From Microvirga splendida (lineage in GTDB: Bacteria > Pseudomonadota > Alphaproteobacteria > Rhizobiales > Beijerinckiaceae), in NCBI RefSeq assembly GCF_016427565.1, contig NZ_JAELXT010000010.1:1-64000 (forward strand): a stretch of DNA of 64,000 nt. Direction: 5' to 3'. A program made the position numbers and the translations under genes. Within the stretch, counting starts at the first letter, position 1. Each line of letters opens with the position of its first letter. Shown here one piece after another: positions 54,291-56,313 of this stretch. The notes below the pieces were generated by a model. The model was not told where the DNA came from and searched no databases. It was given only the letters and a program-made list of their open reading frames with translations.

Positions 54291-54317
54291 AAGGGCGGCC
54301 TTCGGGCCGCCCTTTTT
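54291..54317 (+). terminator. Intrinsic terminator of rplM-rpsI
   Basis: A perfect 10-bp stem AAGGGCGGCC/GGCCGCCCTT with a TTCG loop and a five-T run. It is bidirectional and also suits the convergent gene at 54322. Confidence 0.95.
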
Positions 54318-54321
54318 GCAT

Positions 54322-54837
54322 CTATGCCAGGGCGCGCTCCAGCTCCGCCTTCGTCATCCGCGAGCGGCCCGGGATATCCCGTTTGCGGGCACGCTCCATG
54401 AGCTGGGCCTTCGTAGTCGACGAGGCGCCGCTCCGAGTGGCGCTCTTGCGTGCGGCAGCGGCCTTCTTCGCCACGTCACGCGGCTGCTTAGAAAACTGCT
54501 TGCCCTTACGGGTGTCGGCTCTCTTCTTGTCCGACGACCGCTTGTACTCGCTTTCCGTCAGCGCTTCACGGCTCTTGGCCGGCAGGTAGCGCTCGCCGGT
54601 CTCCCGGCTCTTCCGGCCCGACTTCGTGCCCCAATCCTCATCTTCCCACTGCTTGAGATGGTTGTCCGGGGCCTTCCGGCCCTCGTAGCCGCCGCCTTCC
54701 TTCTTGTACTCGGCCACAGCCATCTGTGCCTTGCGGGCCGACCACTGGCCCGCCTTGCCGCCCTTGGCGCTTTTCGTGACCTTTGCCTTCACCGTCTCCC
54801 AGAGCTTGGGATTCGTCTTCTTCGCCGTGCCTGCCAT
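54322..54837 (-). CDS. Lys-rich DUF5872-like protein with C-terminal SAP/Rho-N-like motif
   Basis: 171 residues, very rich in Lys, Arg and Ala. Residues 1-115 follow a DUF5872-like pattern (LWETVKAKVTKSAKGGKAGQWSARKAQMAVAEYKKEGGGYEG, then EDWGTKSGRKSRETGERYLPAKS). The last ~30 residues (KAQLMERARKRDIPGRSRMTKAELERAL) look like a SAP/Rho-N helix-loop-helix that binds nucleic acid. It is likely nucleoid-associated. A candidate EcfG promoter 37 bases upstream suggests stress induction. Confidence 0.8.
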   Translation of the reverse strand: MAGTAKKTNPKLWETVKAKVTKSAKGGKAGQWSARKAQMAVAEYKKEGGGYEGRKAPDNHLKQWEDEDWGTKSGRKSRETGERYLPAKSREALTESEYKRSSDKKRADTRKGKQFSKQPRDVAKKAAAARKSATRSGASSTTKAQLMERARKRDIPGRSRMTKAELERALA

Positions 54838-54873
54838 TGGAGCCGCCTGCCTGTTGTCCGAGATTTCGGATGC

Positions 54874-54898
54874 AACCGCGCTGGCGCATGAGGGTTCC
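54874..54898 (-). promoter_or_regulatory. Candidate EcfG-type promoter of the Lys-rich gene
   Basis: On the reverse strand: GGAAC, 16 bases, GGTT. It meets the broader GGAAC-N18-TT rule but differs at the first base of CGTT. It lies 37 bases before the ATG. Confidence 0.5.
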
Positions 54899-54922
54899 GG
54901 AAGCTTCAGGCGGGCACAATTC

Positions 54923-54952
54923 TTGACAAGCCAGGCTGTGTGGCTTCATAGA
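54923..54952 (+). promoter_or_regulatory. Candidate sigma-70 promoter of the argC leader
   Basis: TTGACA at 54923-54928 is a perfect -35. CATAGA at 54947-54952 is a weak -10 at 18 bases. The predicted transcript start falls at or within a base or two of the ATG at 54960, so the leader message would be leaderless. Confidence 0.5.
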
Positions 54953-54959
54953 TCGGCTC

Positions 54960-55019
54960 ATGATCATCATTTCAGACATCCGACGTAGCCTGTCTGCCGC
55001 GCCTGCGCGCCTGCGATGA
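54960..55019 (+). CDS. Putative Arg-codon leader peptide of argC
   Basis: A 19-codon frame, MIIISDIRRSLSAAPARLR, with Arg codons CGA CGT at 54981-54986 and CGC and CGA at 55008-55016, then TGA. It is followed by a competing stem (55020-55025 with 55043-55048) and an intrinsic terminator (55044-55074), and argC starts 65 bases later. The order is that of a ribosome-mediated attenuator: stalling at the Arg-Arg pair would leave 55020-55025 free to pair and block the terminator. There is no Shine-Dalgarno site, consistent with leaderless translation as in rhizobial trpL. This is inferred, not proven. Confidence 0.45.
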   Translation: MIIISDIRRSLSAAPARLR

Positions 55020-55043
55020 CGGCTGCCTGTCCGTTCGTCTGCC

Positions 55044-55074
55044 AGCCGCGCCCTCTGCGCGGCTTTTCTTTTTT
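55044..55074 (+). terminator. Intrinsic terminator in the argC leader
   Basis: A 7-bp stem AGCCGCG/CGCGGCT with a 7-base loop, followed by TTTCTTTTTT. No annotated gene ends before it on this strand, so it belongs to the argC leader or to a small RNA. Confidence 0.88.
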
Positions 55075-55138
55075 CTGAAACCTTGCGGGGCCTGTGCGCT
55101 TGGCCCTATCTCAGCCTCGACGACAGAATGGATCGACC

Positions 55139-56101
55139 ATGACCTCGACCCTCGACAGATCAACAGGCCTCAAGACGAAAACCGTCTTCATCGACGGGGA
55201 GGCGGGCACCACCGGCCTTGGCATCCGCGAGCGCCTGAAGGACGTGCCCGGCGTCGCGATCCGCAGCATCGACCCGGAGCGGCGTAAGGACCCGGCCGCC
55301 AAGCGCGAGATCCTGGCCGAGGTCGATCTCGTGGTGCTGTGCCTGCATGACGACGCGGCGCGCGAGACCGTGAGCCTCGTGGACGGCCTGAGCGGCCACA
55401 AGCCCCACATTCTCGATGCCAGCACGGCCCATCGGGTGAGCCCCGGGTGGGTCTATGGCTTCGCCGAACTCGATTCTGCACAACGGGAGGCCGTCGCCAA
55501 CGCTAACCGTGTGGCCAATCCCGGCTGCTACCCGACCGGCGCCATCGCGCTCATCCGGCCCCTGGTGGATGCGGGTCTCGTCCCGGCCGATTACCCGATC
55601 AGTGTGAACGCGGTGAGCGGCTACAGCGGCGGCGGGCGCTCCATGATCGAGGCTTATGAGACTGGCACGGCGCCGTCCTTCGAGCTCTACGGCCTCGGCT
55701 TCGAGCACAAGCATGTGTCCGAGCTGCAGAAATACACGGGCCTGACCCGGCGGCCGATCTTCATTCCGTCGGTGGGCAATTTCCGGCAGGGCATGCTGGT
55801 CAGCGTGCCGCTCCACCTCGACATGCTGCCGGGCAAGCCGAAGGCTGCCGACATCGAGGCTGCGCTCATGGGACATTATCCGGGCGGCGGGCTCGTGAGC
55901 GTGGTCCCGACGATCCGCGACAGCAAGAAGGTCGAGCGGCTCGAGCCCGAGGCTTTGAAAGATACGGACAGGCTGGAGCTCTTCGTCTTCCAGCACGACA
56001 GCTACAGCCATGCGCTCCTGGTCGCCCGCCTCGACAACCTCGGCAAGGGAGCCTCGGGCGCAGCGGTGCAGAACATCCAACTCATGCTGGGGCTGGTGTA
56101 G
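55139..56101 (+). CDS. argC: N-acetyl-gamma-glutamyl-phosphate reductase (short type)
   Basis: 320 residues, the shorter ArgC class seen in alphaproteobacteria. The N-terminal NADP-binding stretch is [18 protein letters not shown], the catalytic Cys130 is in NPGCYPTG, and [12 protein letters not shown] and HKHVSELQ lie in the C domain. It reduces N-acetylglutamyl-phosphate to the semialdehyde in arginine synthesis. The start at 55139 fits the family; the ribosome site is weak. A leader with Arg codons and a terminator upstream suggests attenuation control. Confidence 0.95.
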
Positions 56102-56105
56102 GATC

Positions 56106-56204
56106 TGTCATCCCCGGCGAGCGTCAGCGGAGGGAAGGGGATCCAGTCTCACGTGCAGCGCCATGGATTCCCTGCCCCTTCGCTACGCTCCGGCCGGGAA
56201 TAAC
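56106..56204. repeat. Dispersed palindromic repeat, copy 2
   Basis: Same element as 51263-51361: TGTCATCCCCGGCGAGCG at the left, GGGGATCCA inside, and CGCTACGCTCCGGCCGGGAAT at the right. It starts four bases after the argC stop. Confidence 0.85.
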
Positions 56205-56231
56205 GCTGAACGATTCGATAGCGCCCTCCAC

Positions 56232-56313
56232 CGTCATGGCCGGCCTTGTGCCGGCCATCCACGTTTTGAGCCGTCGCAAAGACGTGGATGCCCGCAACAA
56301 GTGCGGGCATGAC
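56232..56313. repeat. Second type of dispersed palindromic repeat
   Basis: An 82-base palindrome: CGTCATGGCCGGCCTTGT and CCATCCACG mirrored by CGTGGATGCCCG and GCGGGCATGACG. It follows the first repeat type after 27 bases, forming a small repeat cluster between argC and the FAH gene. Confidence 0.8.

Follow-up and report, generated by a model that had tools for sequence, protein, structure and literature searches.

The arginine biosynthesis gene argC of Microvirga splendida is preceded by a compact leader region that carries a candidate regulatory element. The DNA considered here (the window) is a stretch of 64,000 nucleotides, positions 1 to 64,000 of contig NZ_JAELXT010000010.1, and the features of the leader region are all found on its forward strand:

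54923-54928 (+), -35 hexamer TTGACA, read directly in the sequence
54947-54952 (+), putative -10-like element CATAGA, weak (3/6 to TATAAT)
54960-55019 (+), leader peptide frame MIIISDIRRSLSAAPARLR followed by TGA, 19 codons, from the open reading frame and cross-genome conservation; leaderless start and translation presumed
54981-54986 (+), putative sensor, Arg-Arg codons CGA CGT, from the frame test and codon counts
55005-55051 (+), predicted antiterminator, 55005-55009 with 55047-55051 and 55011-55013 with 55043-55045, with inner pairs between, from folding and the swap test
55020-55025 (+), CGGCTG, complement of CAGCCG at 55043-55048, a minor or alternative pairing
55044-55074 (+), intrinsic terminator, stem 55044-55051/55057-55064 and T tract 55065-55074, from terminator prediction and conservation
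55139-56101 (+), argC, encoding N-acetyl-gamma-glutamyl-phosphate reductase of class TIGR01851 (407.7 bits, cut-off 229.85)

The perfect TTGACA and the 19-codon frame with four Arg codons, two of them adjacent, can be read directly where the initial annotation had placed them. The ATG at 54960 lies 37 bases from the start of TTGACA, the stop codon TGA occupies 55017-55019, and the two Arg codons outside the pair are CGC at 55008 and CGA at 55014. At the -10-like position, CATA recurs among many relatives when upstream regions are compared; a scan of 54300-56300 with a generic sigma-70 consensus found no promoter. The terminator stem, 55044-55051/55057-55064, is followed by TTTCTTTTTT, and a folding energy of -43.3 kcal/mol is predicted for the segment 54960-55075 (z -3.1 relative to shuffled sequences). 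Rfam, applied to the whole window at its own cut-offs, returned three tRNAs only.

The surroundings of the leader vary. In the window, a gene for a small lysine-rich protein (54322-54837, reverse strand) lies between rpsI and the leader, while at several Microvirga loci the leader directly follows rpsI. At two loci in which no leader was found (L049, L057), a gene resembling the 54322-54837 product, as judged by eye, precedes argC. Assignment of the terminator to rpsI was rejected, as several relatives have a separate rpsI terminator further upstream. The gap between terminator and argC (55075-55138) is partly conserved among 44 sequences compared, and a CTATCT or TTATAT block found there in some Microvirga could represent a second -10 element or promoter.

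Conservation of the leader and its reading frame

All 48 Microvirga genomes searched contain argC, and the leader is found upstream of it in 45 of them; it is missing at L030 (G012), L070 (G022) and L071 (G010). The terminator, placed at 55044-55074 by the initial annotation and predicted here as well, is intact in 44 genomes, its commonest form being AGCCGCGC-loop-GCGCGGCT. The typical Microvirga leader consists of TTGAC, an interval of 35-37 bases, an ATG opening a frame of 18-20 codons with Arg-Arg(-Arg) in the middle and an Arg close to the end, and then the terminator. The interval of 35-37 bases holds in every relative whose leader was listed, in a scan that permitted 27-48 bases and preferred the start nearest 36. 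From this spacing, the transcript is predicted to start at the leader AUG itself.

Departures from the typical form are few. The leader at L025 (G011) is present with its terminator interrupted by an inserted repeat, a palindrome of the GCGGAAAAGTGGATCCGGTTTTCCGC type, and a similar repeat was seen by eye upstream at L060. One leader keeps a single Arg of the pair (Arg-Trp, L007) and another reads Arg-Cys-Arg (L062). At L035 (G082), the leader has CGA in place of its normal TGA, as noted by eye, and the frame extends to a stop that lies closer to the terminator; control may be altered as a result.

The reading frame was tested with the terminator, TTGAC, an ATG 34-38 bases further on and the first CGAYGY as anchors, an open frame not being required. 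The CGAYGY motif (a CGA-CGY Arg pair) stands in frame with the ATG in 114/114 distinct leaders that hold it, which through shared descent amount to far fewer than 114 independent events; three further rows, from L007, L091 and L236, lack the motif. Seven spacings occur between ATG and pair (18, 21, 24, 27, 30, 33 and 36 bases), all multiples of three, and the frame closes 15-39 bases past the pair in these 114 leaders. The initial annotation had proposed conservation of frame and Arg codons in relatives as a check, and the 45 Microvirga leaders together with the in-frame pairs pass it. On this comparison the leader frame is under selection, and a translation-free arginine riboswitch was discounted on the same test. 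The promoter spacing, the Arg pair, the terminator, the alternative helix and the association with particular genes are likewise established by comparing sequences.

The codons of the leader are equally distinctive. Leaders contain a mean of 5.3 Arg per 19 residues, against an Arg share of 7.9% of codons in 27 long open reading frames of the window. Arg-Arg occurs in 112 of 116 leaders, with Arg-Trp or Arg-Cys in the remaining four, and the 224 codons of these pairs are CGA, CGC or CGU only. CGA contributes just 11% of Arg codons in the 27 long frames, yet it is the first codon of the pair in 99/112 leaders and the second in 12/112. In bacteria, CGA, CGC and CGU are read by one tRNA with the anticodon ICG, which suggests that the sensor depends on this tRNA alone.

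A leader of this kind might also act through its peptide, with free arginine (or ornithine) acting on the nascent chain in the exit tunnel and the arrested ribosome setting the RNA fold. Arrest by free arginine or ornithine on the nascent chain is how the SpeFL leader and the fungal arginine attenuator peptide work, and a C-terminal A-P-A-R-x-R, which is also conserved across much of the genus, would suit a functional peptide. However, apart from the Arg pair, leaders vary greatly in sequence from group to group, and the conserved C-terminus coincides with the antiterminator strand. Moreover, in L013, L015 and L016 a displaced stop removes the last Arg, although most of the RNA sequence is retained. 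Regulation through peptide arrest is thus regarded as very unlikely.

Competition between terminator and antiterminator

The initial annotation had proposed that a stalled ribosome and a ribosome at the stop codon favor mutually exclusive structures, and folding agrees with this in the window and in most argC leaders. In the window, the predicted terminator probability is 0.00 with a stalled ribosome and 0.98 with the ribosome at the stop. Across 59 argC leaders (L025, with its interrupted terminator, was excluded from the folding tests), the median is 0.97 when the ribosome has reached the stop; when it is stalled on the first Arg codon of the pair, the median is 0.01 and the mean 0.31. Under stall, the terminator falls below 0.5 in 39/59 leaders; in the other 20/59 it stays at 0.5 or above, and the antiterminator is not favored in equilibrium folding. 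Shuffling the segment before the terminator in the 59 leaders raises the stalled-state mean to 0.81. In untranslated RNA, the terminator probability is 0.94 in the window, with a median of 0.94, and is near 0 in several relatives. Folding kinetics could exert an influence beyond equilibrium.

The antiterminator strand begins within the last leader codons, at 55005 in the window according to folding. In one common Microvirga type, these codons, GGCGCGCGUGCG, are predicted to pair with the 5' arm of the terminator and the bases preceding it, CGC(A)AGCCGCGCC. The helix is shifted to GCCUCGC with GCGAGGC in L041, L042 and L059, and other groups fold into a like helix made of other letters. The pairing of 55020-55025 with 55043-55048, put forward by the initial annotation, is perfectly complementary as claimed, but it is not the main antiterminator, the pairing of 55005-55009 with 55047-55051 being better supported. 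Folding by group recovers a leader-to-terminator helix in most groups; the consensus fold of the whole 59-row alignment contains the terminator and a two-pair hairpin only, perhaps because the spacing of the antiterminator varies.

When strands were swapped between 12 groups, native pairing (mean -24.8) exceeded permuted pairing (-23.0, sd 0.5; p 0.00015 with 20,000 permutations). As the groups were assigned by hand and 43% of single-sequence swaps pair as well as the native combination, this is a group-level signal of modest size.

In the stalled state, the 5' arm of the terminator pairs upstream in 111/114 leaders. The partner strand starts at a median of 25 bases past the Arg pair (10-90%: 22-27) in folds that begin 13 bases past the pair, a nearer partner being impossible by construction. 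A ribosome at the stop would cover this strand in 110/111 leaders.

Leaders in front of other genes behave less uniformly. Equilibrium exclusion was not seen in 12/19 class-1 argC rows (9/14 distinct, as five rows duplicate another), nor in 5/6 argD and 1/2 argJ leaders. These foldings hold no row for L135. L050, L237, L136 and L118 stand outside alignment A2. Where the peptide of a class-1 argC leader ends 8 or 9 codons past the pair, the strand begins 26-34 bases past the pair and 2-7 bases past the first stop base; in the two leaders with 10 codons (L187, L231), its first base lies 24 bases past the pair, ahead of the stop. The argJ leader L134 has a different fold.

Several hallmarks of an attenuator can be found at this locus. 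A short leader frame carries tandem codons for the amino acid of the pathway, an intrinsic terminator lies between leader and structural gene, and the downstream gene serves to make the amino acid sensed. An exclusive antiterminator, freed by the stall and covered at the stop, is predicted in the window and in 39/59 argC leaders. The argC leader is very probably a transcription attenuator mediated by the ribosome, with charged arginine tRNA as the signal sensed. The transcript would begin with the AUG of the 19-codon leader, which would be translated. When Arg-tRNA is ample, the ribosome would clear CGA-CGU, reach the stop and cover the last leader codons; the terminator would then form and transcription would end before argC. 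When Arg-tRNA is short, the ribosome would stall on Arg-Arg and leave the last leader codons, about 25 bases downstream, free to pair with the 5' arm of the terminator. RNA polymerase would in that case continue into argC, giving the expected response to arginine. The cross-genome comparison supports the leaderless Arg leader peptide, the terminator, an alternative stem and the argC target of the initial annotation, with start and translation presumed, and control of argC by Arg-tRNA supply is well supported as a reading of these sequences.

Distribution of the layout and its relation to RF02884

A model built from the 59 leaders (R1) gave 34 matches with E<1e-9 in 149 genomes of the family, all directly upstream of argC and spread over 12/43 genera. 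In two genomes (G069, G108), the match precedes a class-1 argC. Counting G083 and G087, which match with weaker E and whose loci were read, the leader is found in 36/149 family genomes. Among 397 genomes of the order, R1 gave 18 matches with E<1e-9, which precede seven class-2 argC, nine class-1 argC, one argD and one Rid-family gene. Class-1 argC proteins are about 30% identical to that of the window, and TIGR01850 was confirmed for L084. The Rid-family case (L080, 1440-1562, reverse strand) is a complete Arg leader with terminator before a Rid-family hydrolase gene in one draft genome.

A collection of named genomes was also scanned with a pattern. The pattern, CGATGA...CCGCGC...GCGCGG[CT]TTTT, includes no promoter or start but does require a CGA ahead of the TGA, and it matched at least 117 stretches. 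A TTGAC-spaced leader is present in 48 of the 117 matches listed, and 47 of these 48 precede argC, argD or argJ (34 class-2 argC, 6 class-1 argC, 5 argD and 2 argJ); the 48th runs into a contig end 28 bases on. None of these genes was found downstream in 68 of the 69 listed matches without a leader, the lone exception (L135) being a Burkholderiales argD with an Arg-rich frame. The records scanned come partly from the same genomes as the genus, family and order sets, and the counts overlap. As the class-2 argC matches are largely homologous to the starting set, they are not independent of it; the class-1 argC, argD and argJ cases are.

A second model (R2) matched 24 of 385 class genomes at E<=1e-4. 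Sixteen loci outside the window were read, and at five of them a leader precedes an arginine gene: argD at L241, whose leader is identical to that of L143, and at L250 (33 bits, with an RRRR leader), and class-2 argC at L243, L244 and L245. No leader was seen at the remaining 11. One genome (G454) carries two leaders, one before argD and one before argC. Further copies in the window's own genome were discounted, R2 giving one strong copy (90.8 bits) and a next-best match of 27.0. The R1 and R2 matches of about 30 bits that were read are mostly plain terminators, one of them at the end of rpsI (L226), and L227, L237, L250 and L291 are true leaders among the weak matches. At L249 (G948), a short Arg-Arg-Arg frame and a terminator-like stretch were seen by eye before a gene for a CrcB-type membrane protein-like product, probably by chance.

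The initial annotation had proposed an attenuator upstream of argC. Its target stands, but the layout is wider than argC and than this group, and also precedes class-1 argC, argD and argJ in other Alphaproteobacteria. This breadth bears on a further explanation, in which CGA-CGY is merely a slowly read pair and any translation stress leads to readthrough into the downstream gene. The scarcity of CGA elsewhere in the window and its preference for the first position of the pair agree with slow reading. Still, arginine biosynthesis genes of four kinds (two argC classes, argD and argJ) follow 47 of the 48 listed pattern matches with a leader, which is unexpected company for a general sensor. One R1 match does precede a Rid-family gene, but such a general role is regarded as extremely unlikely.

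A related element has already been filed in Rfam as a small RNA, RF02884 (Burkholderia sRNA 7, BcKCsr7). At a relaxed threshold, the window matches this family end to end with 21.1 bits (E 0.02-0.03), far below the cut-off of 59; it works alike and is not a filed member. The RF02884 consensus reads AUG ... CUC CGA CGC CGC CGC. In Burkholderia dolosa (L149), RF02884 scores 167.6 bits directly upstream of argD (confirmed with 816.7 bits), with the frame MNRFLSALRRRRSPLRPDAAGSSRTRA. Among 150 Burkholderiaceae genomes, 72 have a match with E<=1e-5, 61 of them above the cut-off. Fifty of the 72 loci were read (L299 and L301-L349; the 30 best and 20 chosen lower down), and argD lies directly downstream in 50/50. 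In 49 of these 50 loci, three Arg codons in a row, of which the first two are CGACGY, share the frame of an ATG behind a -10-like element; the 50th (L335) has masked bases over the start. A CCACGG/CCGTGG terminator is present in all 49 scorable loci.

Folding is less favorable to the attenuator reading in this family. Among 47 Burkholderiaceae argD leaders, a terminator probability below 0.5 is predicted in three when the stall is placed at the first Arg and in 12 when it is placed at the fourth. The leader L299 follows the expected course, with probabilities of 0.17 and 0.00 for these two stall positions and 0.99 for a ribosome at the stop. With the ribosome at the first Arg, the natural mean (0.91) is higher than the shuffled mean (0.78), which speaks against exclusion. 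As equilibrium exclusion is mostly unsupported there, the attenuator reading of RF02884 is based on codons, frame, terminator and gene.

The filing of RF02884 also raises the prospect that the terminator simply ends an independent small RNA and that the reading frame is incidental. Bc_KC_sr7 (also nc5U30, RIT34) is listed as expressed in Burkholderia cenocepacia from a locus of 147 bases (PMC10987360), and 82 short 5' UTR transcripts of that species are attributed to processing or attenuation (PMC5688073). The accessible portions of both reports contain no link of Bc_KC_sr7 to argD or arginine (PMC10987360, PMC5688073). By analogy with B. dolosa, the B. cenocepacia locus would lie before argD. 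The reported expression speaks for the existence of such an RNA in Burkholderia and not for a function in trans. Set against an incidental frame are its preservation in 114/114 leaders and 49/49 scorable Burkholderiaceae loci and the constant position before arg genes, and a small RNA gene of this sort is hardly credible. A second role for the terminated RNA would be compatible with these observations.

Attenuation at Arg codons, mainly through the one tRNA that reads CGA, CGC and CGU, is probably common among Alpha- and Betaproteobacteria without ArgR as a means of controlling arginine biosynthesis. It would be placed before one or another gene for making ornithine (argC of either class, argD or argJ), and RF02884 is probably its terminated product at argD. 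An Rfam entry annotated as a small RNA and nothing more would thereby gain an interpretation. The attenuator also predicts which codons and positions to mutate, and it places one layout on several genes of one pathway.

Comparison with known systems

The classical trp and his attenuators follow the same logic as the argC leader. For arginine biosynthesis genes, no leader-peptide attenuator was found in a literature search devoted mostly to open-access papers. A survey of premature terminators does not contain the string 'argin' in its main text (PMC2965389), and the available portion of a survey of structured RNAs contains a carA motif and a cysS leader and none for arginine (PMC8632094). In the part of an Actinobacteria survey that was available, no arginine attenuator is given for that phylum, and T-boxes are named as the RNA elements that control arginine genes in other bacteria (PMC1262725).

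The sensing of Arg codons as a principle is already known from Salmonella. There, the short upstream frame orf34 contains two consecutive core Arg codons, and low arginine is reported to cause ribosome pausing at these codons, refolding of the RNA and increased expression of the downstream gene, speF (PMC6386406). Changing the Arg codons to Lys abolished arginine sensing (PMC6386406). In contrast to the argC leader, the target is an ornithine decarboxylase, and control runs through Rho, RNase G-dependent mRNA decay and a masked ribosome-binding site (PMC6386406). As far as the accessible text of that report goes, the gammaproteobacterial system also differs in having a Shine-Dalgarno sequence, a long leader and no intrinsic terminator (PMC6386406).

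Two RNA motifs from the structured-RNA survey are partly comparable. The uORFC-8-2 cysS motif of Rhodobacterales is likewise an alphaproteobacterial attenuator with a short frame and tandem cognate codons, but it senses cysteine and precedes a tRNA synthetase gene (PMC8632094). The Polynucleobacter carA motif also lies before a gene of the arginine/pyrimidine pathway, although no leader peptide is named for it in the portion available (PMC8632094). RF02884 resembles the window more closely, with an AUG close behind a -10-like element, an in-frame CGA-CGY-CG(C/A) run, a terminator and an arginine gene (argD). It differs in its terminator core, CCACGG/CCGTGG, and in that equilibrium exclusion is seen in a minority of its members.

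ArgR, like the proposed attenuator, controls arginine biosynthesis genes, but it is a DNA-binding repressor (PMC5343134). According to the accessible text, the proteobacterial classes studied alongside the gammaproteobacteria all lack it (PMC5343134). A search with TIGR01529, positive in 9/14 control genomes, did not find ArgR in the genome of the window. The attenuator would thus offer a concrete answer to how arginine synthesis is adjusted where this repressor is missing.

A precedent for the leaderless arrangement, which the initial annotation had invoked, is rhizobial trpL. In Sinorhizobium meliloti, trpL is a leaderless frame at the first AUG of the transcript, forms part of an attenuator and gives rise to a short attenuator RNA, rnTrpL (PMC10117765). 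That system serves tryptophan and trpE (PMC10117765), whereas the layout described here would serve arginine and precedes argC, argD and argJ.
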